DNA of 42,996 nt from a virus, in IMG/VR virus record IMGVR_UViG_3300036820_000317, positions 1 through 42,996 of that record. One strand, given 5' to 3'. A model generated the notes under the pieces. That model was given only the letters and a program-made list of their open reading frames with translations, ran no database searches and was not told the DNA's origin. Shown in pieces: positions 15,816-42,203 of the stretch. A program made the translations under genes and the position numbers. Within the stretch, counting starts at the first letter, position 1; the number at the start of each line of letters is the position of its first letter.

Positions 15816-18410
15816 TTACAGGCTTCCGCTGCCACCACTGTTGCGCACGATGCCGCGCCAGTTGCGGACGGCCGCGGCAAAGCGGCCTTCAATCGAGGTC
15901 ACGCGGCAGCGGTTGCGCGGGTCGTACCACTGCATGAGTTTGCCCCCCTCGAAACCGGTCTGATGGACATAGACGATCGATCGCACGAGGGCCGGGTCGG
16001 CCAGCAGGAACCAGCCGTAGGCGCCGAGCGACCAATCGTCGATCTGCTGCTCGAGCTTGGGGATGATTTTGTTTCTGAAGAAGTTGATGCTCGAATCGGC
16101 CGTGTAGAACGCGGGCGAATCGGGGGGCGGCGGCAGGAAGACCTGCTCGCTCGTGGTCTCGTAGGCGCTGCCCACCAGCGCGATCCGGGGGCCGACGCGC
16201 ATCTTGCGCTGGCCGCCGACGTCGTATTGGGCGCGGAATAGCGATCGCATGGTCGACACCTGCGCGACGCTCGGCGCGCCGCCGCTGCCGCCGGTGACCA
16301 CGTTGGCATGGGCGGAGCTGAACAGGTCGTTGCCGTCGACGCAGGCCACGTTGCCGGTGACGAGGTTGACGCACAAGCGGTTGAGCGTCAGATCGAGCGA
16401 CGTGATCTTGTCGGCCAGATTTTCCTGAAAGAAGCCGAGGTCGTCGTTGACGATCATCACCGGAGTCAGCTCCACCCTGTCGCCGTAGCTGTCGGCCTGA
16501 ATGAATGAAGCCTCTTCGAAGCGCTTCGATTGGGTGAACTCCTCGCCGTCCTCGATCAGCGGAATTTCTGAAAAGCCGCCGATGGCGACGATCGTCTTGG
16601 GCTTGAAGTCGGGCACGGCGGGCAACTGGTAGCACCAGTCGCGATAGGTGGATGTGTTCGTGGCCAGGGCGATGTCCATCATCTTGCCGCTCACGGCGCT
16701 CAAGATGTTGGGATAGTCGCTCGGCGATTGATAGCTCCCGTCGGAGGCGCCGAGTTGAAAGCGGAACTCTTCCTCGGCGCCGGCCTTGAGCCACGCGCGG
16801 GCGACGTCCTCGGGATCTTTTCCCACGAGCTGCACGCCGCGTTGGCGCAGATCGGCGGCGGCGATATCGAGCAGGCGCGCGTAGCGCATCGATCGCGCGC
16901 CGGCCGACAGGGGTTTTTTCTTTCCCTTGTCGTCGACGTTGCAGTTGACGCGGTCCAAAATGGCTTCGGTGGCGACGGCGAACAGGCCGTCGACCTCGCT
17001 GCCGACGCCACGCAGGTCGCCCACGGGATTGACCGGTTTTTCCTTTTTGGCGTTGGTCGCGGTGAACTTGACCAGCGCATCGCCGACGGCGTCGCCGGCG
17101 TCGATCGAGGCCTGGATCGACGCGGCTTCGATGCCCAGCATCTTTCCTCGGGCCTGGATCTCGGCGATGCGGGTGCGCTCTTCGGCCGCGGCCGCGGCGC
17201 GAATCTTTTGCTCGGCGCTATCGGCCTTGGGAGGCGCGAGGGCGGCGATCGCGATCGCTTCGTCGGTCGGCAGCGGCTCGCCCTTGGCGACGAAGAAAGC
17301 CTTGATCGCCGTTTCGGTGTTCGCATCGTCGGCGGCGTCGGCGACCAGGCCGCGCGCGACGGCCGCGCCCTTGAGCTTCGCTGAAACTGACATTGCTGGA
17401 CTCGTTTTTGAGGGAAGGGTTGGTGAAAGGACGGACGGCGGCGGAGCGGGGTCGGAGCCGAAAATGCCTGTCGGACGCGAGGCGGAAGTTTTTGCGCGGG
17501 CGGTGGCGCCCATTTCATCGAGCACGTCTTCAAGCGTGGCGACTCGATCGGCCAGGCCGGCGCTAACGGCCTCTTGGCCGAGCAAACTTTTGCCCTGGCC
17601 GTAGCCCCCCTTCACCGCGTCCGCCGTCGTCGATCGATTGCGGGCCACGCTGCCGACGAATTGGTCGTACACGCTACCGACGAGTTGATCGAGGGTCGCC
17701 CGCGATTGCTCGGTCAGGGGCTCGTAGGGATTCCCGTCGGCCTTGTGCTGCCCGGCGGAAACCACGGTGTACTTTGCGCCGCGGGCTTCGTCGCTCTTGC
17801 TGCTCTCGCGGTGAACGGTAATGACGCCGATCGAGCCGACCAGGGAGGACGGCGAGGCGACGATCTTGTCGGCCGAGGAAGCGATCCAATAGGCGGCGCT
17901 CGACATCTGCGAGTTGGCCACGGCCGTGATCGGTTTTTTTCCTCGCGCCTGGAAAACTTTGTTCGCCAGCTCCGCCACGCCGTGGATCGATCCGCCTGGG
18001 CTATCGACGTTCAGCACGACGCCCTTTACGGCCGGATCCTGCATCGCATCGTCGAAGTCGGCGCCGATCCGCTCGGTGCTTGCGCCGCCGCTGTGCTGCT
18101 GCATGCCGCTCAGTCGTTGCGAGATCGTGCCCTGGATCGGCAAGACGGCGATACCGTCTTGCGTCGTCGTGTAGCCGGGCGAATCTTCGGCGTCTTCGTC
18201 GTCGGGATCAAAATACATGCCGACGCGTCGCACGATTTCTTCCTCGGTCATCGTGCCGGCGCGGTGCATTTCGAACGCGTCGACGATCGTCGCCAGTTTT
18301 TCCGGCGTGATCGCCAGCGGGATGCCGTAGAGGCAACCCGCGAGGTGCGGATAGTCGCGCTTTTTCGTCGATGCGCTCGCGTTCTTTTTGCCAAAACCAA
18401 AAATGCCCAT
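15816..18410 (-). CDS. S49 prohead protease - scaffold - major capsid fusion
   Basis: An 864-aa polyprotein. Residues 80-300 are an S49/SppA-like serine protease: VLNVDSPGG (132-140), SSAAYWIAS with probable nucleophile Ser171, VGSIGVI, and SAGQHK with the likely general base Lys223. Residues 340-460 are Ala/Glu/Lys-rich helix, typical scaffold, starting at an internal Met340 (MSVSAKLKG) that could initiate a separate scaffold-capsid product as lambda Nu3 does. Residues 475-864 are a major capsid of the Mu gpT-like kind, with ADSYGDRVELTPVMIVNDDLGFF and LFSSAHANVV. The portal stop overlaps this start (TAATG), so translation is coupled. A degenerate copy of the palindrome lies at 16225-16240. 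Fusions of prohead protease to capsid are known in other phages. Confidence 0.9.
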   Translation of the reverse strand: MGIFGFGKKNASASTKKRDYPHLAGCLYGIPLAITPEKLATIVDAFEMHRAGTMTEEEIVRRVGMYFDPDDEDAEDSPGYTTTQDGIAVLPIQGTISQRLSGMQQHSGGASTERIGADFDDAMQDPAVKGVVLNVDSPGGSIHGVAELANKVFQARGKKPITAVANSQMSSAAYWIASSADKIVASPSSLVGSIGVITVHRESSKSDEARGAKYTVVSAGQHKADGNPYEPLTEQSRATLDQLVGSVYDQFVGSVARNRSTTADAVKGGYGQGKSLLGQEAVSAGLADRVATLEDVLDEMGATARAKTSASRPTGIFGSDPAPPPSVLSPTLPSKTSPAMSVSAKLKGAAVARGLVADAADDANTETAIKAFFVAKGEPLPTDEAIAIAALAPPKADSAEQKIRAAAAAEERTRIAEIQARGKMLGIEAASIQASIDAGDAVGDALVKFTATNAKKEKPVNPVGDLRGVGSEVDGLFAVATEAILDRVNCNVDDKGKKKPLSAGARSMRYARLLDIAAADLRQRGVQLVGKDPEDVARAWLKAGAEEEFRFQLGASDGSYQSPSDYPNILSAVSGKMMDIALATNTSTYRDWCYQLPAVPDFKPKTIVAIGGFSEIPLIEDGEEFTQSKRFEEASFIQADSYGDRVELTPVMIVNDDLGFFQENLADKITSLDLTLNRLCVNLVTGNVACVDGNDLFSSAHANVVTGGSGGAPSVAQVSTMRSLFRAQYDVGGQRKMRVGPRIALVGSAYETTSEQVFLPPPPDSPAFYTADSSINFFRNKIIPKLEQQIDDWSLGAYGWFLLADPALVRSIVYVHQTGFEGGKLMQWYDPRNRCRVTSIEGRFAAAVRNWRGIVRNSGGSGSL
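16225..16240. promoter_or_regulatory. degenerate ATTYCGCGCGRAAT-like site (possible ninth copy)
   Basis: TATTGGGCGCGGAATA inside the capsid gene matches the site consensus at 14 of 16 positions. It falls in the only long gap (11.5-22.5 kb) between clear copies. It could be chance within coding sequence. Confidence 0.3.
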
Positions 18411-20026
18411 TAGACGTTGTCCTCCTCGGGAGAAGAGGAGCCGGCCGGAACCTTTTGCGGCACTTGCCCGCTATCGGGATCGCTGCCGACCTGGCCGTTC
18501 TTGGGCGGACTGGCGCCTTTCGAAAAATCGTATTGCAGGCCGAGCTTGTCGGCGTGTTTCATAAACGCGGCTTGCTCGCGCTGCACTTTCTTCCAGGGCA
18601 GGCCGAGCTTGGCGCACTCGCGCGGGCCGCTGCTCATTCCCATGCGGATGCGGGCCCCCGCGGCGTCGGTCTCTTTCTCTTCGTCGAGTTGCTGATTGCC
18701 GGGGCCCATGGCCTCGACGCCGAGCCAGCGGCGCGGCTGGCGATTGAATTGATTCACGGTCGGGCCATTGCGCAGCACGTCGTAAGCGATCGCCTGGCGG
18801 GTGAACTCGCGGCGCACCGGCTTGACGGTTTTCCGCGCGAACCAGCTTTGCAGCACGCGATATTTGGCTTGGTCCTTCAAAAACGCGGCCCGGGCCGCGG
18901 TGTAACTGGCGGCCGTGAAATCGCCCGTCAGGCCCAGGTAGGTCATGCCGTTGATGGCAGAGCCGCACTGGCCCTGCAAAAGCTTGATGAACGGGGCGGC
19001 GTCGGGATTGGGACGGTTCGACTCGACAATTTTGACGTCGTCGTCGGCGCCGATCTCGCCCACGATGCCCTTGCCGAGCTTTACGAGTTCATTGCCGAAG
19101 TGATCGGCATCGGGTTCCAGGCCCATTCCGCCCCGGTTTGGGGTGGCACGTTTGACCAGCACCGTCAGCAGTGCGCCGATCGCGGCCGCCGTGAGTTCGT
19201 TGCCGATGTACCAATCGAGATCGCGAGCGGGCTGCACGATCGGGGCGTACCAAGAGATGCCGCGCGATTGCGAGGGGCGGAATTTTACGAAGGGGTGGAT
19301 CACGCGGTCGGCCGGGATGCGGTAGCTCTTGCCGTCCCAGCCGGTAAAACCGTCCCAGGGGTAGGTGTCGTAGAGCCAATAGGCGATCGGCCGATCGAAG
19401 CTATCCATCTCGATGCCGCGCATGATGCGGACGCCGTTTTGATCGGGCGGCCGGTCGCGCGTCCAATCGAGTTGCTCGGGCTCGATCACCTGGTAGCAGA
19501 GCGGCACCACGCGGTTGCGGTCATTGCGCTGGCAGCGGAGCAAGAGAGTTTCGCCGACGCCGGCGGCTTCGCCGAACGCCAGGCCCTGCATCTCCTGCCA
19601 AGAGAGCTTGCCTTCGACGTCGGCTTCCTCTTCGGCCCACTGCTCGAACCAGTAATCCGACTCGTCGTTGAAATCTTCGATCGCGTCTTGCGTGCCATCG
19701 TCCTTGACGATGGCCGCGTCGGCGAATGTCTGAATGCCGGTGCCGATCACGTTGGTTTTGAGTTCGGCTTGCGCGCCGATCACCGTGGCATTGTTGCGCA
19801 GCAAGTCGCGGACGCGCGGCGTCAGGGTGAACCAGCTATCGAAGATGGCTAGGTCGCCCGAGCGGTGCGGCGGGATCCAATCGCGGTTGAGGCGATTGAT
19901 CTTGGCCCCTTCGTAGGACGAGTAGTGGCGCGGGGCGTAGGGGTCGGGCATCTCCGCCCAGGCGACGATCGGCAAGCCGCCGGCGTCGGTGCCGATCACG
20001 TCGGGGCTGGCGGCTGCCTTGGGCAT
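18410..20026 (-). CDS. phage portal protein (lambda B-like)
   Basis: A 538-aa protein with the lambda-type portal pattern: HYSSYEGAKINRLN near the N-terminus, then the helix RDLLRNNATVIGAQAELKTNVIGTG (about 73-97), LSWQEMQGLAFGEAAGVGETLL (about 140-161), IEPEQLDW, HPFVKFRPSQSRGISWYAPI, and the long stem helix with YTAARAAFLKDQAKYRVLQSWF (about 374-395). Portals form the dodecameric ring at one capsid vertex that takes DNA from the terminase. The 3' end is a charged Pro/Gly tail whose stop overlaps the next ATG. Confidence 0.9.
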   Translation of the reverse strand: MPKAAASPDVIGTDAGGLPIVAWAEMPDPYAPRHYSSYEGAKINRLNRDWIPPHRSGDLAIFDSWFTLTPRVRDLLRNNATVIGAQAELKTNVIGTGIQTFADAAIVKDDGTQDAIEDFNDESDYWFEQWAEEEADVEGKLSWQEMQGLAFGEAAGVGETLLLRCQRNDRNRVVPLCYQVIEPEQLDWTRDRPPDQNGVRIMRGIEMDSFDRPIAYWLYDTYPWDGFTGWDGKSYRIPADRVIHPFVKFRPSQSRGISWYAPIVQPARDLDWYIGNELTAAAIGALLTVLVKRATPNRGGMGLEPDADHFGNELVKLGKGIVGEIGADDDVKIVESNRPNPDAAPFIKLLQGQCGSAINGMTYLGLTGDFTAASYTAARAAFLKDQAKYRVLQSWFARKTVKPVRREFTRQAIAYDVLRNGPTVNQFNRQPRRWLGVEAMGPGNQQLDEEKETDAAGARIRMGMSSGPRECAKLGLPWKKVQREQAAFMKHADKLGLQYDFSKGASPPKNGQVGSDPDSGQVPQKVPAGSSSPEEDNV

Positions 20027-22637: not shown

Positions 22638-24656
22638 TCACCGCGCGGCAAAATCCTCGGGTCCGTCGGCGCGGGCTTCCTGGCCGTGGAACGCCGTCGC
22701 TGCGTGGTCTTTCGGCTGCGGCTTTTTAGGCCGCGGCCATTGGGACGAATCCCATTGGCCGCCGGTGATCATCTCGGCCAGCGCGCGGTTGTAGACCTCC
22801 AAGTCCCAATAGTGCTCGCCGAGCGCCTTGTCGCGCACGACCCAGCGCTGGATCTGCTTGCCGCTGGGCAGCGTCTCTTGCACGGGCGACTCGTTCACGA
22901 GCTGGCGAAGATAATCCTCGCCGGCGTCGAACACGTCGCTCGGAAACTGGATCGCGCCCGGCCGCCCGGGCTCGATCTGAAAACGGTCCAACAGATCGGC
23001 CTTGAAGGCGTTGACGAAAATGCCCCAAAGCTCGAGGCCGCCCTCATACGGCTTGCCGGTGCGGGCGTTTTTCTCGACGACGTGCATCTTAAACAGGTCG
23101 GCCGGGTCGACCTTCAGGTCGCCGCGGACGGCGCGCACGCGATCACCCGGATGGGCGCGGAGGAACTGGTGCACGTCGGTGATGCGGTGGCCGGCGTCGA
23201 CGGCCAGCAGGCGCACGGCTAGCGACGCGCGGCCGAATGGATTCTTCTGGGAGCCGTCGCCGGCGATCGGCCACAGCACGTCGAGCACCGCGGCATCGAG
23301 CTGGGCCAGGTCGGTGCTGATGAGCGCGTCCCCGGTCTCGACGTCCTTATCGCGCTGCAGCACGCCCCAGTCGATCGTCCAATTGGAGAGCCTGTCGCCC
23401 CAGCCCTTGACGGACCAATAGACGCGGTCGGCCTGCACGTCGGCGGCGCCGGTAAGGAAAAAGCATTCGGGCGGCGCCGTGCCGCGACGATGCGAGCCCG
23501 CCAGCCGGCGGCCGAGCGTTTTCCAATGCGGCATCGCGGACGAGGTGCTATAGGGCAGCCCGAGCCAGTTGTTCCAAAAAACGCGGAGCGAATTCGATTC
23601 GCGGGCTTCGACGTAGGCGCCCGCCACGTCGCCGAACGAATTCTGCTCGCCGCACAGGCTGCCGCTGATCTGGAAGCTGGCGTTGCGCGGCGATCGCTCG
23701 GCGCGGCCGGATAGCTTGCCCCGCTTGTCGATCCGGCAGCCGCGCGGGCACCAGCGCCCGGCGGCGACCATGTCGGCCTTGTCGCCGCTCTCGATCCGGC
23801 AACCCCGCTCGCAGACGTAGTAGGCGCTCTCGCGCACCTCGTCGGCCGATCGCCAATTGCTCCGCTCGTCTTGCAGGCCGGCCACTCCGCCGCGGCCGGC
23901 GTGCTCTCCCGATTTGTGCGGGAAGAATCGCAGCTCCTGGTGGTGGCCGCAACGCGGGCACGGCACGAGGAACCTGCGCTGGTCGCCGGCCTTATAGAGG
24001 GCGGCGATCGTCGAGTTCTCGTCCGTCGGCGTGCTCTCGTAGAAAAGCTTGTGCTCGGCGAAGGCCTTTACGCGGGCCTTGATGATCTTGGCGGACTGGC
24101 CGAGCCGTGGCGAATCCTGCCAGACGTCGACCTCGGTGCAGAAAACGTATTTGCACGTGCGGCCGCGCATCCGCTGGCTGCTGCCCGAGAAAGCCAAATA
24201 GCACACCATCGAATCGAGATCGATCCAGCGATCGTTCCAAAGCCGCTCGGGCGGCACGCGATGGGCGACGCGCGGCGAGGACTCGGCCATGCCGTAGACC
24301 TTGTCGCGCATTTCGCGCATGGCGTCTTGATCCGGGCCGCAGAAGATCGACGGGGCAGGATCGATCTCGGCACGCGACAACAGCGCCGCCGTGGCGAGCA
24401 CGGTCTTGCCGGCCTGGGCGTCGGCCATGATCGAGATCGACCGCACCTCCGGATCGTCGAAAAGGGCCAGCGGTTCGCGCCAATAGGGACGCGTGGCCAA
24501 ATCGAACGGCCCCGGATCGGCCGAGGTTTCCGCCGGCAGCCGCAACTCGGCGGCGCACCAATCGGGCGTCGGCGGATGCGCTTGCGGATGCCAGGCGGCC
24601 GCGGCGGCGAGCAGCACGCGGGCGATCGGGTTCGGTTGTTTAGCGGAGGCGGTCAT
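22638..24656 (-). CDS. large terminase subunit (GpA family)
   Basis: A 672-aa packaging ATPase/nuclease. The N-terminal WHPQAHPPTPDWCAAELRLP and RPYWREPLALFDDPEVRSI precede the Walker A ADAQAGKTVLAT (about 79-89) and a downstream VFCTEVDVW acidic motif. A zinc-ribbon follows (VPCPRCGHHQEL and later YYVCERGC...WCPRGC), as in GpA proteins. The C-terminal nuclease part has FLTGAADVQADRVYWSVKGW and ends with EHYWDLEVYNRALAEM. Length matches lambda GpA. The neighbouring Nu1-like gene overlaps its start by four bases, giving a coupled terminase pair and predicting cos-type packaging. Confidence 0.92.
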   Translation of the reverse strand: MTASAKQPNPIARVLLAAAAAWHPQAHPPTPDWCAAELRLPAETSADPGPFDLATRPYWREPLALFDDPEVRSISIMADAQAGKTVLATAALLSRAEIDPAPSIFCGPDQDAMREMRDKVYGMAESSPRVAHRVPPERLWNDRWIDLDSMVCYLAFSGSSQRMRGRTCKYVFCTEVDVWQDSPRLGQSAKIIKARVKAFAEHKLFYESTPTDENSTIAALYKAGDQRRFLVPCPRCGHHQELRFFPHKSGEHAGRGGVAGLQDERSNWRSADEVRESAYYVCERGCRIESGDKADMVAAGRWCPRGCRIDKRGKLSGRAERSPRNASFQISGSLCGEQNSFGDVAGAYVEARESNSLRVFWNNWLGLPYSTSSAMPHWKTLGRRLAGSHRRGTAPPECFFLTGAADVQADRVYWSVKGWGDRLSNWTIDWGVLQRDKDVETGDALISTDLAQLDAAVLDVLWPIAGDGSQKNPFGRASLAVRLLAVDAGHRITDVHQFLRAHPGDRVRAVRGDLKVDPADLFKMHVVEKNARTGKPYEGGLELWGIFVNAFKADLLDRFQIEPGRPGAIQFPSDVFDAGEDYLRQLVNESPVQETLPSGKQIQRWVVRDKALGEHYWDLEVYNRALAEMITGGQWDSSQWPRPKKPQPKDHAATAFHGQEARADGPEDFAAR

Positions 24657-25129
24657 GGTTTCTTGCTTGGCGGTTCGGCCGGGGGCGGCGTTTCCTCGGC
24701 CTCGCGCGCTAGCGATTCCTCGAGCTGGATGCAGGCGGCGTCGATCAGCCGGACAGCGGCGGCGCGCACGCGGCCTGCGGCGCGGCGGCCGCCTCCTTCG
24801 GAGTGAATTTTGGCCAGCCGCTGCGGCAATTGGCCGAGGATCGCGCGGGCGTTGAAGATGTGGCGGCGGATGCGGCGCTCGATCTCGTCGATCGGGACGA
24901 GCTCGCCCTTGCGGACCTGGTTGGCCGTGCGCTCTTTGTCGAGCTTCTCGCGCAGGATCGCGAGCTCGAGCAGCGTTCGCCCGTGCGACTCCGGCGATGC
25001 GGCGCGCTGCTTGGCGCCGGAGAGATTCTCTTCACGCCAGGCCTGCACCGCCGCGGCGCTTTCCAGCGGGCAGCCGCGATCGCGGTAGTCCTTGAGCACC
25101 GTCGTGCTGACGCCGACCTCCGCGGCCAA
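24653..25129 (-). CDS. small terminase subunit (Nu1-like)
   Basis: A 158-aa protein with an N-terminal HTH of the Nu1 pattern (LAAEVGVSTTVLKDYRDRGCP), a middle helical segment with REKLDKERTANQVRKGELVPIDEIERRIRRHIF, and a C-terminal helix. Small terminases recognise the packaging site and load the large subunit. The TTG at 25129 is probably not the real start. In-frame codons upstream read on as KTDSAKPSPAPRLTLNRLAAEV, which completes the first HTH helix, so the protein likely begins 15-25 codons earlier at a non-ATG codon, overlapping the methyltransferase end. Confidence 0.8.
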   Translation of the reverse strand: MAAEVGVSTTVLKDYRDRGCPLESAAAVQAWREENLSGAKQRAASPESHGRTLLELAILREKLDKERTANQVRKGELVPIDEIERRIRRHIFNARAILGQLPQRLAKIHSEGGGRRAAGRVRAAAVRLIDAACIQLEESLAREAEETPPPAEPPSKKP

Positions 25130-25178: not shown

Positions 25179-26486
25179 TTAGCGCGTGCAATGGCTCGCT
25201 CGCTTGCGTGGCTTGGGTTTGGGCTCGGATGGTGCGCGCGAGACCTTGCGGCCGGTGAACTCTTCCCAGCGACGCACCGCCACGTCGCAATACGTCGGGC
25301 TCAATTCGACCCCGCGAGCCTTGCGACCGATCTGCTCGGCCGCGACGAACGCAGTGCCCGAACCGGCGTAAATATCTGCGACGATGTCGCCAGGATCGCT
25401 GTGATTCTGATAGGCGTTGACGTACAAAGCGGCCGGCTTCGTCGTCGGATGATCGGGCGATGCGCGCGGCCGGTCGATCTGCCACACGCTGGTGCGGTGC
25501 TCGCCCTTCATCGGCCGCCTGTGACGCTTCGTCCACGAGAGCAGGATCGGCTCATGCTGATAGTCGTAGTCCAGCCGGCCCATCGAAAACGTCGGCGAAT
25601 TTTTGACCCAAATCAGAATATGCCGAGCGGCTAGACCCGCTTTTTGCATCATCATCATCATCATCATCATTCCTAGGCCACCTCCTTGGGGACTGCAGAC
25701 GCAAAGAGTGCAATCGTCGGCCATGGCGCGCTCGCGCAGGACGACGAACGCGGCGAGCAATTCTTTTTCGAGTTCGTCGGGCGACAGGTCGTCGCCCGCG
25801 ATGTCCTCGAGACATCGTCCCGACTTCTTTTGGCGGTTCAGGTCGTCCGACTTCTTTTGGCGGTTCAGGTCGCGATTTTTCTTGCCGATGCTGACGCCGT
25901 AGGGCGGATCGGTAAACACGCATATCGCCCGATCGCCCTGCATGACACGATCGATATCCTCGGGACGCCGCGCATCGCCGCACAACAGACGATGCTCGCC
26001 GAGGAGCCACAGATCGCCGGGCCTCGTGAGGGGTTTCGCCGGCGGGGCCGGCGTGTCGTCGGGATCGCGTTGGGCGGCGGCAGAGCCGTCGGCCGAGGCC
26101 AGGAGGCGCCCGAGCTCCTCCGGGTCGAACGCCAGGAGCGAGAGATCGAATTCGAGCTTCGCGAGGTCCTTGAGCTCTTTCTCCAGCAGCGACTTCTCCC
26201 AATCGGCGAGCGTCGCGGTCTGGTTGTCCGCGATGCGGTAGGCCTTGATCTGCGCCGGCGTGAGTTCCTTCGCGACGTGGACAGGCACCTTCGCTAGGCC
26301 GAGCTGCGCCGCGGCCTTCCATCGCGTGTGCCCGCAAATGATGATACCCGTCGCGTCGACGACGATTGGCTGCCGGAAGCCGAACTCGCGGATCGACGCA
26401 GCGACCGCATCGACGGCCTGATCGTTGACGCGCGGATTGCCGGGGTAGGGCTTGATGGCCGCCGGCTTGCGAAATTCAATCTTCAT
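25179..26486 (-). CDS. DNA methyltransferase with N-terminal ParB-like domain
   Basis: A 435-aa protein (ATG 26486; the longer frame adds only Pro/Arg read-through). Residues 1-110 are a ParB-like domain (PYPGNPRVNDQAVDAVAASI, then GFRQPIVVD and IICGHTRWKAA). The C-terminal methylase has TDPPYGVS (DPPY, about 192-199) and later DIYAGSGTAFVAAEQIGRKARGVELSP, an AdoMet-binding motif. With DPPY first and AdoMet motif last it is of the beta class (N4-cytosine or N6-adenine). Two odd features: a 9-residue tandem duplication (DLNRQKKSD/DLNRQKKSG) directly after the catalytic loop, and eight consecutive Met from an ATG triplet run at 25647-25670. Both fall in the variable region between the motifs. 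Such genes often protect phage DNA from restriction. Confidence 0.85.
   Translation of the reverse strand: MKIEFRKPAAIKPYPGNPRVNDQAVDAVAASIREFGFRQPIVVDATGIIICGHTRWKAAAQLGLAKVPVHVAKELTPAQIKAYRIADNQTATLADWEKSLLEKELKDLAKLEFDLSLLAFDPEELGRLLASADGSAAAQRDPDDTPAPPAKPLTRPGDLWLLGEHRLLCGDARRPEDIDRVMQGDRAICVFTDPPYGVSIGKKNRDLNRQKKSDDLNRQKKSGRCLEDIAGDDLSPDELEKELLAAFVVLRERAMADDCTLCVCSPQGGGLGMMMMMMMMQKAGLAARHILIWVKNSPTFSMGRLDYDYQHEPILLSWTKRHRRPMKGEHRTSVWQIDRPRASPDHPTTKPAALYVNAYQNHSDPGDIVADIYAGSGTAFVAAEQIGRKARGVELSPTYCDVAVRRWEEFTGRKVSRAPSEPKPKPRKRASHCTR
25647..25670. repeat. (CAT)8 microsatellite inside the methyltransferase gene
   Basis: Eight perfect CAT triplets, encoding eight Met on the minus strand. 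Being triplets they alter protein length, not frame. Confidence 0.95.
25820..25872. repeat. 27-bp tandem duplication inside the methyltransferase gene
   Basis: 26 bp at 25820-25845 is repeated exactly at 25847-25872 (period 27), in frame, giving a doubled DLNRQKKS motif next to the catalytic DPPY. Confidence 0.95.
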
Positions 26487-26707
26487 TTGGGCGGGAGGAG
26501 GAGGAGGAGGGCAAATTTTTTCGCGCCGGGCGCCAAAAAAACGCAACCGATGAGGGCCCGTGCGGGGGCCGGTCGGCCGGAAGGACCCGGAGGGGGAGTG
26601 GTCACGGGGCACCGAGGCGGATCGAGGAAGTCGGAAGTGTCACGCGGATCGCGGATCGCGGAAACATTCCGCGCGGAATAATTCGGGAGGGCCTGTGCGC
26701 CGGCGGC
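26487..26707. other. intergenic region with site 5
   Basis: A 220-bp gap upstream of the methyltransferase. It holds a polypyrimidine tract on the minus strand directly before the start (no Shine-Dalgarno), GCGGATC direct repeats near 26644-26660, and the palindrome at 26665-26680. No gene was recognised. Confidence 0.5.
26665..26680. promoter_or_regulatory. ATTYCGCGCGRAAT palindrome, site 5
   Basis: CATTCCGCGCGGAATA, perfect 14-bp palindrome in an intergenic region. Confidence 0.75.
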
Positions 26708-26989
26708 CTATTGGCCGGCGACGACCGCCGATGTCGCGCTCGAGGGCGGCGGCGAAGCGTCGATCACTTCTTGCACCAGGTTGTCGATGTTCGTCAGATC
26801 GGCTGCGAGCGTTTGCTGCAAGGTTTGCATCTGCGCCTGAGCGCTCGCGACCGACTGCTGGGCAGCGACGAGATTGGTTTGCGCCGCGGTCATCGCGGCG
26901 ACCGCCGCGAAGTAATTCTGCTGATCGGTCTGCGCTTGATTGAGCGCGTTTTGCACGTCGGTGAAGGTCGGCGTCGTTCCCGCGGTCAT
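26708..26989 (-). CDS. small coiled-coil protein
   Basis: A 93-aa protein, Ala/Gln/Thr-rich and almost entirely helical (QNALNQAQTDQQNYFAAVAAM, then AQQSVASAQAQMQTLQQTL), with a Pro/Ser/Ala tail. It looks like a simple coiled coil that would oligomerise. GGAGA lies about 9 bases before the ATG. It belongs to a run of Ala-rich proteins (26.7-31.9 kb) read leftward from the promoter near 31960. Function is unknown. Confidence 0.55.
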   Translation of the reverse strand: MTAGTTPTFTDVQNALNQAQTDQQNYFAAVAAMTAAQTNLVAAQQSVASAQAQMQTLQQTLAADLTNIDNLVQEVIDASPPPSSATSAVVAGQ

Positions 26990-27351: not shown

Positions 27352-28443
27352 CTACGTCGCTGCCGGCGCGGGCGCCGCCGGCGTCGTTGTCGCTGCGGCA
27401 GCCGGAGCCGCGGCCGCGGCTGTCGCCGCGCTCGGCACCGCCGAAGGCGATTGAGCGAACGCGGCCACGCTGCTCGGCGTGTTCACGGCTTGCGATGCCG
27501 CCGGCGTCGATCCGCCCCCGGCGATCGGCGATGCCGGCGAGCCGCCCGCCGTCGAAATGCCGACGTCCTGCGCGCCGACGTACATTCTCGGCGTGGCCGG
27601 CCACTGCTGCGCGAGCGTCAGCGCATCTTGAATCGGGATCCCGCTGATCGCATCGAGATCGTTGGAGGTCGGCCACCAGTAGAGAGGCGGCCGATCCTCC
27701 GTGAGTTCGGTGCTCATCAGATATTGAGCCGGGTTGTACCCGGAAAAATCGGTCGCCGCGAGCGCGAAGGTCGCCGCGTAGGCCTGGGCCCGCGTGTAGC
27801 CGAAGTACTTCATGGCCATCTGGGCCAGAATCTCTTGAATGTATTTGCCGATTCGCCAGGCAAAGTCGTTCGAGATGTAACCGGGCCGCTCGTTGTCCGA
27901 ATGCTGCATGGCCTCCTGCAGCATGAGCAGCCCGAGCTTGATGTACATCCGCAGATCGCTCTGGCGGATGCGCTGGCCAAAGTAGGGGACGGGCCACACG
28001 AGGAACGCCTCGTAATCCGGCGCCGCGTGCGTCACGTCGAGGCCGTTCGGATCGTTGAAGTTGCGCGTCTGGTTCGCCAGGCGCGAGCGCGCCAGATTGA
28101 GGCACGTATTGAGGTCGAACCAATACTGCGATTGCGGAGGCGCGGCGAACCGCGCTTCCAGGCGATGCGCCAGATCGAAGAAGCATCTCCCCACCGAATC
28201 GCAAAACTGCTTGATCACGAGGTTCATGGTCGCCGTCTTGCCGGCCGGATTGGGGATCGCATATCCGGCCGCGCCCCATTTGCCGTTGTTGTACCAAAGG
28301 ATCTCGTCGGTCGAGAAAGTCGGCACGGCGTTGGCCGTGTTGTCGACGCCGGTCGTCGCGGCCGGATTGGTCGCCGCGGCGGTCGACGACGCGCTCGAGC
28401 TGCCCGCCGCGCTGCTGGTTGACGCTGCCGCTGCCTTGGCCAT
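27352..28443 (-). CDS. accessory-cluster protein with Ala/Pro-rich ends
   Basis: A 363-aa protein with three parts: a Ser/Ala/Thr-rich N-terminus (1-40), a folded core (about 45-290) rich in Trp, Tyr and Phe (ILWYNNGKWGAAGYAIP; LNLARSRLANQTRNFNDPNG; FGQRIRQSDLRMYIKLGLLML; PPLYWWPTSNDLDAI), and an Ala/Pro/Thr-rich C-terminus (300-363). The core could be a helical phage structural domain, but no family was recognised. The low-complexity ends resemble those of the neighbouring 136-aa and 614-aa proteins, so the three may share a location or assemble together. Confidence 0.6.
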   Translation of the reverse strand: MAKAAAASTSSAAGSSSASSTAAATNPAATTGVDNTANAVPTFSTDEILWYNNGKWGAAGYAIPNPAGKTATMNLVIKQFCDSVGRCFFDLAHRLEARFAAPPQSQYWFDLNTCLNLARSRLANQTRNFNDPNGLDVTHAAPDYEAFLVWPVPYFGQRIRQSDLRMYIKLGLLMLQEAMQHSDNERPGYISNDFAWRIGKYIQEILAQMAMKYFGYTRAQAYAATFALAATDFSGYNPAQYLMSTELTEDRPPLYWWPTSNDLDAISGIPIQDALTLAQQWPATPRMYVGAQDVGISTAGGSPASPIAGGGSTPAASQAVNTPSSVAAFAQSPSAVPSAATAAAAAPAAAATTTPAAPAPAAT

Positions 28444-28470: not shown

Positions 28471-28809
28471 TCAATCGCACTGGTAATTGTCGGGGAACTC
28501 GATCATGTCGACGTTCTTGCTCGCGAGCTCATGGGGACAATCGGCGCAGAACTGAAGTTTGCCTTTCGCCACGAACAAATGACACGTCGTCACTCGCTTC
28601 CGCGGCTCGACGATTTTTCCGTCGTCGCAGGTGGCCCAATAAAACATCCTCAGCGACGGCGCGAAGGTGGGCGCCTCGGCGTTGCCGTCGAACTTCCATC
28701 GCGGCGTCTCGAAGAAATGTGCGCACCGGCAGCCGGGGCAGAAGAAAAACCACTGCTGGGTGCCGTTGGGCAAATCGAGCCGTCTCAACTTCGGCGTGAT
28801 ACGTGTCAT
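28471..28809 (-). CDS. putative zinc protein of DUF6527-like type
   Basis: A 112-aa protein starting at ATG 28809 (the longer frame adds 14 charged residues). It has WFFFCPGCRCAHFFETPRWKFDGNAEAPTFAPSL, then TTCHLFVAKGKLQFCADCPHEL and DMIEFPDNY. The C-P-G-C...H, W-x-F-x-G-N...P-T-F-x-P-S and C-H-x-F...F-C-x-D-C-x-H features resemble a small phage family (DUF6527) thought to bind metal. Six cysteines and two or three histidines would allow one or two zinc sites. It lies inside the accessory cluster; the hairpin at 28860-28895 is upstream of its start. Confidence 0.6.
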   Translation of the reverse strand: MTRITPKLRRLDLPNGTQQWFFFCPGCRCAHFFETPRWKFDGNAEAPTFAPSLRMFYWATCDDGKIVEPRKRVTTCHLFVAKGKLQFCADCPHELASKNVDMIEFPDNYQCD

Positions 28810-28859
28810 CGCGCGCCCGGTTCGTTTCTTTTTATCGAGCGATCGTCTCACAAAACGGG

Positions 28860-28914: not shown

Positions 28915-29325
28915 TCAGACCGCCGGCGCGGCGACCGCCGGAGCCGCGACGGCCGAAGCGGGCGCCGCCGGAGTGGTCGCCGGCGTCAATAGCGCGTTGA
29001 TGGCGGCCTGTTCGGTCGTCGACGTGATCACGGTGAATAGCTGCGCCGTGCCTCCGGCTTGCTGGACCGCCGCGGCGACGGCCGCTTTTTCCGCGGCTTG
29101 CGATTTGGCCAAAGCGGCTTGCGTGTTGGCGAGGGTCGCCTTGCCGCCATTGGCCGTCAGATCGGTGATCTCGGCCTCGAGCGCGGCCTGTTGGGCCTGC
29201 GACTGGGCCATCAGCCCCAGCACGCGATTGGCCATCGCCGCCAAGCGCCAATTGCTGCCCGGCCTCGCGGCGAACGCGCTTGCCGACGGGGAGGACGGAC
29301 TCGACGAACTGCTGCCAGTGCTCAT
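28915..29325 (-). CDS. Ala-rich coiled-coil protein of the accessory cluster
   Basis: A 136-aa protein starting at ATG 29325 with GTATCC-type context; the longer frame only reads the upstream gene out of frame. It has a Ser/Pro-rich start, a helical middle (NRVLGLMAQSQAQQAALEAEITDLTANGGKATLANTQAALAKSQAAEKAAV in several short pieces) and an Ala/Pro/Val-rich tail. It is probably a coiled coil with a flexible end. It is followed by the strong hairpin at 28860-28895, and preceded by the thioredoxin-protease gene. Function is unknown. Confidence 0.55.
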   Translation of the reverse strand: MSTGSSSSSPSSPSASAFAARPGSNWRLAAMANRVLGLMAQSQAQQAALEAEITDLTANGGKATLANTQAALAKSQAAEKAAVAAAVQQAGGTAQLFTVITSTTEQAAINALLTPATTPAAPASAVAAPAVAAPAV

Positions 29326-29366: not shown

Positions 29367-31211
29367 TCACGCTGTTTCTGGCACGAGAGACGAACTCATC
29401 CCGCTCAAAATCTGCGGTACCATTCGTTCGGCCTGCTGCAGGGCGCCGATCGCGCCGGGATAACTCTTGGCAACGGCCGCATGCGCCGTTTGCCACGCCT
29501 GATTGATCGACGCGTCCTGATACGGGACGTAATTTTGCGGCGTCGGAGCGGCCGGCTTCGCCGCGGACGCGTTCGCCGCGATCGCTTGCGACGCGCTTGT
29601 CGCGGGCTGATTCTGCAGGATGATCGCCGGCGTCGATGGCTGAACCGCGGGCGCGGCCGGCTTCGGGCCCGCGGAGGGAGTGCTGGACATCGCGCCGCCA
29701 GGCGGCGAGGCGTTCGGAGGCGGCGTGCTCGCCGCCGTCGCGGTGGCGCCGGCGATTTTCTTCAGCGCTCCATTGCCGACGAACCAGAGCGCGCCGGCCG
29801 CCAGCAGCCCCGGAACGCCTGCGGCGCTTCCCAGGCCGAGCATTTGCGCCAGCGTAAGCCCTCCGGCCGCGGCCGTCGTCGCCGACGTGGCCGAGATCGC
29901 CGGCAACGCGGCTTGCAATGCCGTCTGTAGCGCCGCCGGCGTGATGGCCTTATTGAGGCTCGCGATTTGGCCGGTCACCTGCGTTTGCAAATTTTGCAAC
30001 GCCGTGTTCAAAGCCGGCAGCGTGCCGGCCTGCTGCGCGAGCTGTGTCAACTGGGTGTTGATCGAGGTCAGTCCGCTCGCGTTGGCGCCCCCGCCGGCCG
30101 TGAGCGTATCGAGTTCCGATTTGATCGCCGCCAACTGCCCCGTGAGATTCAACGGATCTGCGGCGCTAGCCGCGGCGGGTGATACTGCCGGCAACGCCGC
30201 CGGGGCAGTCCCCGGCGGCGGAACGGTCAGATTGATCGATCCGCTTACGGGCGGAGCTGAAGAAACCTTCGGATGCAGCCAGCGATAGAGTAGCCTGCGA
30301 ATTCGCGTGCAGCACGGTCCGACCGTAATGTTTTCCTTCGTGCCGCGGCCGTCGAGCATCCCCGCCAACTGCCCCCGCGAATTGAGGATCGGTCCGCCGC
30401 TGTCTCCCGATCGCGCCGAGCAGCCGGCCACTTCCAAAAATTCGGCCGCGTCCCCCTTCTCCGGAATGAGGAATTGGCTGAAATTGCCGCGTTGCTCCAG
30501 GAACTGATCGTTCGACCCGAACCCGGCGATGGCCAGCGGCTCGCCCGCGCGCGGCGGAGAATCGGCGAGCTCGAGCGGCGTCACGTTCGCCGGCGCCTGG
30601 ATCGCGATCGCCGCCACGTCCCAGATCGGGTCGCTCATCAGGAGCGAGCCGGCGGCGCGAACGCTGTTGGAAAAATCGACCTCGATCGACGGTTCGCCGG
30701 CGACGACGTGGCAGTTCGTGATCACCATCCCCACTCCGCGGCCGTCGACATCGATCAGCGTCCCGCTGCCCCATTTGCCGGGGCATTTTACGCGGACGAT
30801 CGGGGAAGCGGGCTTGAGGCGCGAGGCTTGAGTCTCGTAGCCCGCCCGGCGAAACATGCCGATCAACTCGCTGATGTCGTTTTGCCCAACGATCCGCTGC
30901 ACTTCGCGCCCATCGACGATCAGCACGAAGCAAGGAATCGACGCCACATGAAACTGCTGCGCCAGTGTTTTTTGCTCGTCGATATCCACCCGGCGCACCG
31001 GGAACCCGGCTGCGGCAAGTTGTTGCACGGCCGGCTCCATCGCGCGGCACGGGCCGCACCAATCGGCGCGAAAATCGAGCAGCACGATACTGGAAGCTCC
31101 GGACGAGCCGCCGAAGCATTGTGCGTGAACTTGCGACGCGAGCAGCTCGGCAATCACGAACGCCGAAGCCGCGACAAACAAGACGATCCATAGCTTCCAT
31201 CGCGGTTGCAT
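29367..31211 (-). CDS. secreted thioredoxin - trypsin-like protease fusion
   Basis: A 614-aa protein. Residues 1-30 form a signal peptide or anchor (WKLWIVLFVAASAFVIAELLASQVHA). Residues 40-125 are a thioredoxin fold with DFRADWCGPCRAMEP (Cys52, Cys55) and SIPCF carrying the cis-Pro (Pro93). Residues 135-300 are a chymotrypsin-like domain with GSGTLIDVDG, His168 in NCHVVAG, Asp198 in DVAAIAI, and Ser271 in RSGDSGGPI. A helical Ala/Leu/Gln-rich region (355-460) and a hydrophobic helix (LAAGALWFVGNGALKK) follow, then a long Ala/Pro/Ser linker and a final helical segment. A redox domain joined to a serine protease is very unusual in a phage. The two domains are joined by a segment encoded by a family-4 repeat (30811-30838). 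Confidence 0.85.
   Translation of the reverse strand: MQPRWKLWIVLFVAASAFVIAELLASQVHAQCFGGSSGASSIVLLDFRADWCGPCRAMEPAVQQLAAAGFPVRRVDIDEQKTLAQQFHVASIPCFVLIVDGREVQRIVGQNDISELIGMFRRAGYETQASRLKPASPIVRVKCPGKWGSGTLIDVDGRGVGMVITNCHVVAGEPSIEVDFSNSVRAAGSLLMSDPIWDVAAIAIQAPANVTPLELADSPPRAGEPLAIAGFGSNDQFLEQRGNFSQFLIPEKGDAAEFLEVAGCSARSGDSGGPILNSRGQLAGMLDGRGTKENITVGPCCTRIRRLLYRWLHPKVSSAPPVSGSINLTVPPPGTAPAALPAVSPAAASAADPLNLTGQLAAIKSELDTLTAGGGANASGLTSINTQLTQLAQQAGTLPALNTALQNLQTQVTGQIASLNKAITPAALQTALQAALPAISATSATTAAAGGLTLAQMLGLGSAAGVPGLLAAGALWFVGNGALKKIAGATATAASTPPPNASPPGGAMSSTPSAGPKPAAPAVQPSTPAIILQNQPATSASQAIAANASAAKPAAPTPQNYVPYQDASINQAWQTAHAAVAKSYPGAIGALQQAERMVPQILSGMSSSLVPETA
30811..30838. repeat. family 4 repeat inside the domain linker
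   Basis: GGCTTGAGGCGCGAGGCTTG plus AGTCTCG, encoding the linker between the thioredoxin and protease domains (YETQASRLKPAS) in frame. Confidence 0.6.
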
Positions 31212-31247: not shown

Positions 31248-31273
31248 GACCCCTAACCCCTGGCCCCTAACCC
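31248..31273. repeat. family 1 repeat, C-rich orientation
   Basis: GACCCCTAACCCCTGGCCCC and TAACCC between the fusion protein start and the amidase stop. Confidence 0.85.
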
Positions 31274-31884
31274 GCCAGCCGCGGATATTGGATCGTCAGG
31301 CCCTCGTAGAGGACATCAAACGCCGCCGAGTGGCCAAGGTGGTTCGGTTCGACGTACTGGCTTCTGAGGCCCGGGTACGGATCCCAACTCTCGGCGACGA
31401 CGTCTTTCCACGCCTGGCGATAGCTCCAGACAACAGCCTCGGAGCAAAACTTTGGATCGTCGAATGTCGGTTCGACCGCGTTTTCAACATGCGGTCCGTA
31501 GCCGATCAGCCGCAGAAACGTCCGAATGATGGGCAGGTGGACTTCGGCGTCGGCGGCTAGCGATCGCCAGCCGTAGGACTCGCCGGCCTGGCGAAACATC
31601 CAGTCTGCGGCTTTGATGCACAAAGCCTCTTCGCACTTGGGCCGGTAGACGTCGATCACGCCCGGATTCGCCTCCACCTGGCTCGACAGCGTCACGACCC
31701 GAAAGCCGTAGTATTCGCGCGATTCGGCGAGGGCCAACACATCGCCGCGCCAGAGCGCCATCGCGGCGTGGCTATAAGGGCCTTCGGTGTTGCCGGCGAT
31801 CAAAGAGCCCGGCCGGCGAAAGAGTAGCAGGTCCCCGTCCAAGATGTGCGATCGCACGTTCGCGTAGGAGGTCGAAGAATTCAC
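31267..31884 (-). CDS. permuted papain / YiiX-like amidase or hydrolase
   Basis: A 205-aa protein starting at GTG 31884. The N-terminal DGDLLLFRRPGSLIAG is followed by YSHAAMALW (His39), then AESREYYGFRVVTL, and FCSEAVVWSYRQAW (Cys147). The His-before-Cys order with G-D-L-x-x-F and S-H is that of circularly permuted NlpC/P60 enzymes (YiiX type), which cleave cell-wall peptides or acylated substrates. It could serve as lysin or as an accessory hydrolase. It is the first gene downstream of the TTGACA promoter at 31955-31981, leader about 60 nt. Confidence 0.7.
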   Translation of the reverse strand: MNSSTSYANVRSHILDGDLLLFRRPGSLIAGNTEGPYSHAAMALWRGDVLALAESREYYGFRVVTLSSQVEANPGVIDVYRPKCEEALCIKAADWMFRQAGESYGWRSLAADAEVHLPIIRTFLRLIGYGPHVENAVEPTFDDPKFCSEAVVWSYRQAWKDVVAESWDPYPGLRSQYVEPNHLGHSAAFDVLYEGLTIQYPRLAG

Positions 31885-33741: not shown

Positions 33742-34383
33742 TCACACGAGCAACGGCGCGCCGGCCGGCGCCGGCGCGGGTGGTTTGGGCGAATCATCGT
33801 CTCTTTGGAAATCGTCGTCATCATCATCATCGCGCGGGCCGCGCCAGTCGTCTTCGTCGCGGAAGAAAAAAGAGCATTCGAAACCCGCGATGCGAAGTCG
33901 GTCGAGCCATCCGGCCGTCCAGCGCACGTTGACGGCCTGCGCCGCGTGGCGGCCCGCGTCGGTCAGTCCCCAATGATGGCACGCGCAATTGCATCGCGTG
34001 AGGGCCTGCTGCCGCTTCGACCAGCTCGACCGCTCCGTCTGCACGAGCCCGGCCCGCTTGAGGGCCCCCATCGACACGAGTTGGATCGTCGCGTGAAACC
34101 CGCCGGCCGCGACGACGTGGCCGATCGCGTCGCGCGACCACCAATTCCAGCGTTGGGCATTTTCAAGCGCCAGCAGTGCCGCCAAGATCCGTTTCCGGTG
34201 CGCGCTCTGCTTCACGGGAGCCTCCAACCGGTGCGGTCCGCCAGCCACTGCCGGCAGATCTCGGCGATCGCCGCCGTTTCGGCCGGCCCTGTGTCCCTTC
34301 GCGAGCGCTCCCCTGGCATCGTCGATCAGAGACTCGAGTCGGCGCAGGCGATCCTTCCTCGATTCCATGACGGTCCCAATCAT
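33742..34383 (-). CDS. early DNA-binding-type protein with acidic tail
   Basis: A 213-aa protein. The start ATG overlaps the stop of the upstream 66-aa gene (ATGA), supporting 34383. The middle has a winged-helix pattern (HRKRILAALLALENAQRWNWWSRDAIGHVVAAGG, then LVSMGALKRAGLVQTER, HHWGLTDAGRHAA), followed by a segment with RCNCACHHWG (Cys/His). The C-terminus is Asp-rich (DDDDDDDFQRDDD) from an ATC/GTC triplet tract near 33820 and Pro-rich. It is probably a regulator; the family is not named. Confidence 0.6.
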   Translation of the reverse strand: MIGTVMESRKDRLRRLESLIDDARGALAKGHRAGRNGGDRRDLPAVAGGPHRLEAPVKQSAHRKRILAALLALENAQRWNWWSRDAIGHVVAAGGFHATIQLVSMGALKRAGLVQTERSSWSKRQQALTRCNCACHHWGLTDAGRHAAQAVNVRWTAGWLDRLRIAGFECSFFFRDEDDWRGPRDDDDDDDFQRDDDSPKPPAPAPAGAPLLV

Positions 34384-34581: not shown

Positions 34582-34642
34582 TCGTGTGTCCGCGTGATCC
34601 GGGGTTTACTTTTTTTTCTTCCTCGTCCCCCGTCCCTCGTCC
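34582..34642. repeat. family 3 repeat, then family 1 repeat encoding the ParB C-terminus
   Basis: GTGTCCGCGTGATCCGGGGT at 34586-34605, then CTCGTCCCCCGTCCCTCGTC at 34622-34641, which encodes the last residues of the ParB-like protein (GMDEGRGTR). Confidence 0.65.
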
Positions 34643-41063: not shown

Positions 41064-42200
41064 CTAAAAAAGCTCGAGCTGCCGCGAGCCCGTCGCCGGC
41101 GTGAACGACGGCTGAGGCAGCTTCGCCGCGGCCTCGCAAAGAATTTCGGCCGACGTGTAATAGTCGAGGTTCACGTCGCCGCCGGCGTGCCCCGAAAACA
41201 TTTTGGCCGCCGCCGGGTTGATCCGCTGCATCTCCGTGTTGGCCCGCTTGCGAATCGCATGGAACCCGTAGCGCCGGGCGGCTTCCAAATGCGACGAGTC
41301 GAGGATCCGCTTCCGCGTGTGGTGCAAGTGCGTTTCGCAAAACGGCCAGGGAAACACGAGTTCCTCGTGCGCGCCGCGCATCCGCTCGATCGCGGCGAGC
41401 GCGTAAAAGTTCAAAAACGGTTTCAGATCGCGTCGGCTTTTGTTGCTCCAGGGCCCGGGGACCCGCTCCGGGATGTTGACCCAGGAGCCGAGCTCGTCGC
41501 GCTCGATCCAAGCCCAGCGGATGCTCATCGCCTGTCCAATGCGCAAGCTGCAGTTGAAGACGACGAGCAATAACGATTGCCACCAGACGCCGGCAGGAAC
41601 GCGCGTCGAGATCGGCGCGGGGGCGGAATGGCAGGCATCGAGCGCGAGCCCGATCTCGTCGAGCGTCCACACGTTCTTGGTGCGCGGTTTCTTGGCCTTT
41701 GGCTTTCCGATTAAAGGCGGCTCGGCCAATAGCCCCGCGCCGTGCATCGATCGCGGCCCCCCCTTCGATCGGCCTTTTGGCCCCGCGCGGTCCAACACGC
41801 ATTGCACGTGGATGCAATGCTTGCGCACGGTCGCTTCCGCGATCGACTGGCCGCGGAGCAATCCGGGCAATGTTCGCAGGCCGGCCTTGAATTGCGCGAC
41901 GCACGAGTCGTCGATTCGATCGAGCGGCGGATCGCCAGTGAAGCGCGCCCATAGCGCCGTGGACTGGTCGTATTGATCGAGCGACCGTTTCGCGAGGGCC
42001 CCGGCCACGAGGCAGACCGGGCGAACGTAGGCGCGATAAAAGTCGAGCAAAGTGATCGACGGGGAAAGGCCGTGCGGCCGCGCGGCCTCCGCGGAGGAAG
42101 AGGCTTCGCCAGCGTCTTCGTCCGTGAAGAGCCGCAGCGCCGGCGTGGGCGCGGGGGGAAAGAGTTCGCGTTGCGTGGGATCGGTCACTGGGCGTCGCAT
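41064..42200 (-). CDS. int: tyrosine-type integrase
   Basis: A 378-aa protein; ATG 42200 (a TTG lies one codon upstream) with GGGGAGC about 9 bases before. Residues 45-135 are a core-binding helical domain. The catalytic domain has Arg (about 220, CSLRIGQAMSIRW), a Lys near 254, HAIR (His314, Arg317), His338 (SGHAGG) and Tyr347 or 348 (NLDYYTS), i.e. the complete R-K-H-R-H-Y set. The protein ends in SRQLELF, which matches the sliding-clamp binding consensus QL(S/D)LF, unusual for an integrase. It lies 640 bp from the right att core. Confidence 0.9.
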   Translation of the reverse strand: MRRPVTDPTQRELFPPAPTPALRLFTDEDAGEASSSAEAARPHGLSPSITLLDFYRAYVRPVCLVAGALAKRSLDQYDQSTALWARFTGDPPLDRIDDSCVAQFKAGLRTLPGLLRGQSIAEATVRKHCIHVQCVLDRAGPKGRSKGGPRSMHGAGLLAEPPLIGKPKAKKPRTKNVWTLDEIGLALDACHSAPAPISTRVPAGVWWQSLLLVVFNCSLRIGQAMSIRWAWIERDELGSWVNIPERVPGPWSNKSRRDLKPFLNFYALAAIERMRGAHEELVFPWPFCETHLHHTRKRILDSSHLEAARRYGFHAIRKRANTEMQRINPAAAKMFSGHAGGDVNLDYYTSAEILCEAAAKLPQPSFTPATGSRQLELF

Positions 42201-42203
42201 CAA

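Follow-up and report, generated by a model that had tools for sequence, protein, structure and literature searches.

The protein encoded at 29367..31211 in the window (the whole 42,996-nucleotide stretch of viral DNA analyzed here) carries a thioredoxin domain and a trypsin-like protease on a putative membrane anchor. It belongs to a family in which the anchor and a separate partner protein, designated 363, form the constant unit and the enzymatic head is exchanged. The searchable literature contained no description of the anchor-363 unit or of the swapping of protease and thioredoxin heads, which are new in this sense; the domains themselves are known. No fusion of a thioredoxin with a protease in a phage was found in the literature search. 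We estimate a probability of about 45% that this protein acts as protease and thiol reductase from a membrane tether, as part of a cassette for lysis or envelope breach located before the terminase genes.

The open reading frame for this protein (P0001) starts with ATG, directly preceded on the 5' side by the Shine-Dalgarno-like stretch GAGGAAG, and has a coding score comparable to those of other phage genes. The features of P0001 are listed below.

29367..31211, minus strand: thioredoxin-trypsin "slot" protein P0001, 614 aa
31122..31211, minus strand: signal peptide or N-terminal hydrophobic helix, residues 1-30, hydropathy 2.43
30861..31094, minus strand: thioredoxin domain, residues 40-117, Pfam PF00085 at 2e-17, well above the cut-off
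30276..30800, minus strand: trypsin/HtrA-like protease domain, residues 138-312
30708-30710, 30618-30620 and 30399-30401, minus strand: codons of the triad residues H168, D198 and S271, respectively
29877..30146, minus strand: coiled-coil stalk, residues 356-445 (AlphaFold2 helices at 356-449; homologous stalk in contig L122)
29766..29840, minus strand: second hydrophobic segment (predicted transmembrane helix), residues ~458-482, followed by K residues
29388..29528, minus strand: C-terminal "YPGA" anchor domain, residues 562-608, common to the slot proteins of ~36 contigs

The N-terminal helix ends in the cleavage-like motif VHA/QC, and cleavage-like AxA motifs are also found in relatives. 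The WCGPC motif occupies residues 51-55 (positions 31047-31061) and the cis-proline is P93. The thioredoxin part matches PDB thioredoxins (phmmer, 1.3e-16), and its AlphaFold2 model has the secondary structure elements in thioredoxin order. By sequence, Pfam and predicted secondary structure, the WCxxC motif and the cis-proline are thus placed in a thioredoxin fold. The WCGPC domain is shared with the phage-encoded thioredoxins of PHROG 22 (phrog_22, 1.5e-4). That family is assigned to DNA, RNA and nucleotide metabolism, whereas the thioredoxin of P0001 is predicted to be exported and is fused to a protease.

The protease domain was identified by Pfam as Trypsin_2 (PF13365, 1.8e-19, residues 148-285), well above the cut-off. 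The motifs TNCHVV and GDSGGP appear at residues 165-170 and 269-274, respectively, and H168, D198 and S271 are invariant across a 20-sequence alignment of relatives. In the AlphaFold2 model of the domain most pLDDT values are 90-97; the model matches DegS/HtrA proteases without their PDZ domain (Foldseek E 5e-13), which gives a chymotrypsin fold with a His-Asp-Ser triad. Both catalytic sites look intact from their sequences, and a chance explanation for the domain make-up is excluded. The periplasmic HtrA/DegS proteases (Trypsin_2) resemble the slot protein in fold and triad and in its predicted membrane tethering and periplasmic side. P0001 differs from them in having a thioredoxin (or, in relatives, a cysteine motif) in front of the protease and a stalk and transmembrane segment behind it, and the slot has a conserved, predicted cytoplasmic tail and a location in the phage late region. 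No PDZ domain, by which DegP and DegS are recognized, was found in the Pfam scan of P0001, whose tail is a coiled coil with a transmembrane segment; the protein is therefore not an HtrA protease proper.

The earlier note, made from the DNA letters, had described an exported, phage-borne protein with WCGPC, a complete His-Asp-Ser triad and GDSGGP, and this description is borne out by Pfam, motifs and alignment. The long Ala/Pro tail and second hydrophobic helix that it reported are also present. Residues 313-560 are 36% Ala+Pro, and the helix at ~458-482 has a hydropathy of 1.61, weaker than the transmembrane helix of most relatives, in which a clearer helix is followed by Arg/Lys. A C-terminal helical pair is modeled by AlphaFold2 at residues 566-608.

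The window is a divergent lambda-like temperate phage. Its layout is integrase, ParB, C92-like hydrolase, thioredoxin-protease, 363, ParB-methylase, TerS/TerL (GpA), portal, S49-capsid fusion and tail, with two genes between the slot and 363. The surrounding features are as follows.

41064..42203, minus strand: tyrosine integrase (PF00589, 3.6e-5; phrog_1, 4.3e-13)
31267..31884, minus strand: C92/YiiX-like permuted papain hydrolase, 205 aa (PF05708, 1.5e-4, below the cut-off)
28915..29325, minus strand: 136-aa coiled-coil/Ala-Pro protein
28471..28851, minus strand: DUF6527/phrog_3362 protein (PF20137, 7.8e-7; phrog_3362, 1.1e-24)
27352..28443, minus strand: 363 protein, the conserved slot partner
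26708..26989, minus strand: 93-aa coiled-coil protein, with a similar one at the same place in relative G033
25179..26612, minus strand: ParB-N6/N4 DNA methylase (PF01555, PF02195)
24653-25129: terminase small subunit, assigned through a relative TerS/Nu1
22638..24656, minus strand: terminase large subunit, GpA (PF05876, PF20454)
15816..20026, minus strand: lambda-type portal and S49 protease-capsid fusion

The terminase large subunit is only ~27% identical to those of the closest named phages, which places the lineage of the window far from described phages. When window proteins were compared with named phages and plasmids, only generic thioredoxin, DegP and TerL matches were obtained. The ParB-methylase frame contains a GMMMMMMMM run, which is a trinucleotide repeat within the gene, and a similar run of Asp lies within 33742-34383. 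An 880-aa ParB-like protein is encoded at 34606-37248; for its extended C-terminal part, the best coverage comes from a ParB of the Planctopirus phage-like plasmid pPLIM01 (30.6%), which is only a hint as to the host. For a long time planctomycete walls were described as made of protein that withstands boiling SDS (PMC3422733), and peptidoglycan has since been found in them (PMC4432640); neither paper contains a statement on cystine or disulfides. The case for the function of the slot is not built on a planctomycete host.

Scans for close relatives using P0001, terminase or 363 alone gave no match. A search with the WCGPC-His pattern at the spacing of the window returned 100 contigs and no fusions, because the spacing differs in relatives. 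Scanning IMG/VR with a His-to-GDSGGP pattern identified many phage trypsins that are 35-47% identical to residues 148-311 of P0001, none with an in-frame thioredoxin in the sequence examined at that stage. The best match of that scan, L122, has the same stalk, transmembrane segment and tail, and a short Cys-rich stretch replaces the thioredoxin. The order C92, protease, 363 is common to the window and L122, and parts of it were seen in other neighborhoods. A separate phage trypsin group (L208, L212, L213, L166 and others, many from similar metagenomes) has a DnaJ-like CxxC..CxxC zinc motif in place of the thioredoxin and is without stalk or tail.

A first scan of IMG/VR with a 363 alignment provided 22 loci and a second one 36, on 38 distinct contigs in total; these contigs were thereby retrieved independently of the protease. 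For 33 of them, including 25 of the 30 outside its training set, a profile of the YPGA tail built from nine sequences matches the open reading frame that precedes 363. The refined profile matches in 36 of the 37 contigs with upstream sequence, a value that is circular for the remaining contigs because some of them were used in training. Where upstream sequence is available, 363 is in nearly all contigs immediately preceded by the gene of an exported protein that has this stalk, transmembrane segment and YPGA domain. The constant unit is therefore the anchor plus 363, and the enzymatic head is the variable part; the pairing of thioredoxin with protease described in the earlier note is present, but it is not what is conserved. 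We define the YPGA-363 slot family as signal peptide, effector, stalk, transmembrane segment and YPGA tail with 363 downstream, and the slot of the window has all of these elements. No Pfam or PHROG family and no PDB or BFVD fold was matched by 363, whose model has a pLDDT of 67.8, and the anchor-363 pair is covered by no Pfam, PHROG or structure match.

A C92 gene often precedes the slot and the terminase genes follow, in the order C92, exported protease, 363, TerS and TerL. The cluster with a C92 hydrolase and Ala/Pro-rich neighbors noticed earlier is thus real, and its order is conserved across dozens of viral contigs. The hydrolase of the window is 58% identical to the L122 copy at the same place. 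Its assignment as a permuted papain is sound, although the Pfam match is below threshold in the window (PF05708) and firmer in a relative (4e-7). It resembles the C92/YiiX permuted-papain amidases and is distinguished from the others by its tight linkage to a protease slot. The conserved order makes the joint action proposed in the earlier note likely; the envelope or surface role also proposed there is an interpretation, considered below.

The slot was fully visible in 35 contigs, among which the pairs L237/L239 and L240/L241 look like copies. The heads comprise 21 trypsins, 7 metalloproteases, 3 with thioredoxin only and 4 with neither, and a protease is thus present in 28 of the 35. The seven metalloproteases have Peptidase_MA-like HExxH motifs (HEITH, HEIIH and HEVDH) with sub-threshold Pfam matches. 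Outside the window, a thioredoxin lies in or beside the slot in eight contigs (L240, L241, L258, L259, L262, L280, L283 and L292), and some relatives join it to a metalloprotease. L262 encodes the thioredoxin in a gene of its own, which shares 4 bases with the protease gene. Nine of the 46 relative records have a PF00085 match, and in eight of these it is in or adjoining the slot. The CxxC motif and the cis-proline are kept in the thioredoxin copies examined by eye. On the 363 tree the thioredoxin label needs 7 changes, at least 5 of which are forced by well-supported branches, and its clustering is no greater than that of shuffled labels.

A second true thioredoxin-trypsin fusion was found in G011. 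As in the window, its gene follows C92 and precedes a ParB-methylase; neither 363 nor a YPGA tail was detected there. The domain order thus recurs in another phage, and the reading of a unique fusion is rejected. The reading as an ordinary host gene is disfavored, though weakly, by a GTDB exact-8-mer scan that gave one distant protease-domain match (27%) among the matches listed. The nearest whole-phage relative, G033 (identities of 51% for TerL, 44% for portal and 48% for 363), has a thioredoxin without a protease, and G001 (L122) has a protease without a thioredoxin. Neither module alone is therefore indispensable, and yet the two keep coming together. That trypsin, metalloprotease and thioredoxin are repeatedly mixed on one anchor argues strongly, at the genomic level, for a common site of action.

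Some slot genes have unusual structures. The 823-aa protein at L258:3530-5998 consists of a thioredoxin, a middle stretch, a metalloprotease, a transmembrane segment and a YPGA tail; the middle stretch is CAP/SCP-like by eye and has no Pfam match. In the GC-rich clusters L231:1426-3619 and L232:108-1941 the slot gene is broken in two: the trypsin frame stops, and the YPGA tail is read from another, overlapping frame, through a frameshift, an assembly error or a programmed event.

Six colinear clusters of 14-16 kb (L312-L314 and L317-L319) were obtained, five in isolate genomes (IMG 2936177252, 2936130024, 2936205437, 2936151833 and 2509276002) and one from metagenome 3300048833. Their order is C92, protease slot, 363, TM-coil, ParB-like, ATPase-GNAT, terminase, portal and capsid. 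The phage head proteins are ~51-86% identical and 363 is 79-90% identical among them. No integrase or replication genes were seen in the clusters examined, which are candidates for a domesticated prophage or gene transfer agent. Two of the clusters, from different sources, have the same exported endonuclease/exonuclease/phosphatase-like gene at their flank (L317:14763-15863 and L319:15429-16565, 52% identical), which suggests a fixed chromosomal site.

The reading as a lysis or envelope-breach cassette starts from the domain make-up, the intact catalytic motifs, the conserved gene order and the swapping of modules; from these we infer slot topology, lysis timing, substrates and 363 binding. 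P0001 would be a late phage protein that its signal peptide directs to export and its second hydrophobic helix anchors in the inner membrane. The cleavable signal peptide, the transmembrane segment, which in relatives is followed by Arg/Lys, and the tail would together place the heads outside and the tail inside. The thioredoxin and trypsin heads would be periplasmic on the coiled-coil, Ala/Pro-rich stalk, and the short conserved helical YPGA tail would be cytoplasmic, probably contacting the co-conserved 363. The C92 hydrolase would attack peptidoglycan or another amide, the thioredoxin would reduce disulfides of envelope proteins and the protease would cut those proteins to allow progeny exit. 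Heads would be exchanged between phages to fit different envelopes.

The cassette is located near the terminase in the late region, as expected of a phage lysis cassette. The lysis genes of lambda lie upstream of terminase, and the position of the slot cassette matches. The holin-endolysin-Rz/Rz1 cassette of lambda likewise places an exported, coiled-coil, membrane-anchored protein beside a hydrolase, and small transmembrane proteins are found in relatives of the window. Small holin-like frames with one or two transmembrane segments lie between slot/363 and TerS in G033, G032, G034, G036, G011, L203 and L242; none was found in the cassette of the window. The slot cassette differs from that of lambda in having enzymatic protease/thioredoxin heads rather than a passive spanin, C92 rather than a lysozyme, and the additional 363, and it is known from genes alone. 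Pfam scans of 30 proteins from the window, 45 from G033 and 45 from G001 gave no lysozyme, amidase or spanin match. C92 and the slot are the sole lysis candidates among these scanned proteins, a result in which Pfam could overlook a divergent endolysin or virion hydrolase. C92 is not known to cut the cell wall in any phage. Proteolysis is not indispensable, since 7 of the 35 slots have no protease.

Head swapping would also follow from receptor diversity if the slot served envelope remodeling or superinfection exclusion, with the protein at the inner membrane of the infected or lysogenic cell destroying or reshaping envelope proteins such as receptors or injection channels and so blocking rival phages. 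We regard this as rather unlikely. It accords with rapid head turnover on a stable anchor, with slot proteins that are 38-51% identical in the same clusters where 363 is 79-90% identical, and with C92-trypsin pairs in other phage contigs. The slot, however, is on the late strand between the early genes and terminase and not in a lysogeny module, and it persists in head-gene clusters without an integrase, for which exclusion would bring no evident benefit.

363 resembles no lysis protein, and its almost constant pairing with the slot could indicate a virion or assembly role instead. If 363 were a virion protein, the slot might dock new particles to the membrane, or it might be carried in the virion and digest the envelope of the next host at entry; taken together, these versions appear quite improbable. 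The partnership in almost every contig beside packaging genes would fit, as would stalks in which coiled coils and collagen-like repeats occur, features also of virion fibers, but a signal peptide and transmembrane segment are unusual in tailed-phage virion proteins, and 363 has no match in PHROGs or viral structures. A DegS/HtrA-like protease and thioredoxin that process and disulfide-edit exported or virion proteins of the phage during membrane assembly would agree with the HtrA fold, the thioredoxin and the constant link to 363 and head genes, but this is very doubtful: a PDZ domain is lacking, the phage exports few other proteins that could serve as targets, and slots with thioredoxin only, metalloprotease only or neither fit one fixed processing job poorly.

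A more specific form of the lysis reading, which we consider rather unlikely, is an undescribed phage system in which an exchangeable, membrane-anchored protease/thiol-reductase head breaks a protein-based, disulfide-stabilized envelope layer at release. If true, lysis would be aimed at protein and not at peptidoglycan, and the system would be kept also in integrase-less, GTA-like head clusters of some bacteria. A reductase and a protease on one membrane tether are what the dismantling of a disulfide-linked protein envelope would require. If the lysis reading holds, a proteolytic, redox-assisted step would be added to phage release, together with enzymes for hosts with protein-rich walls. The slot and 363, two orphan families with members in many uncultured phages and on isolate chromosomes, would gain a testable role.
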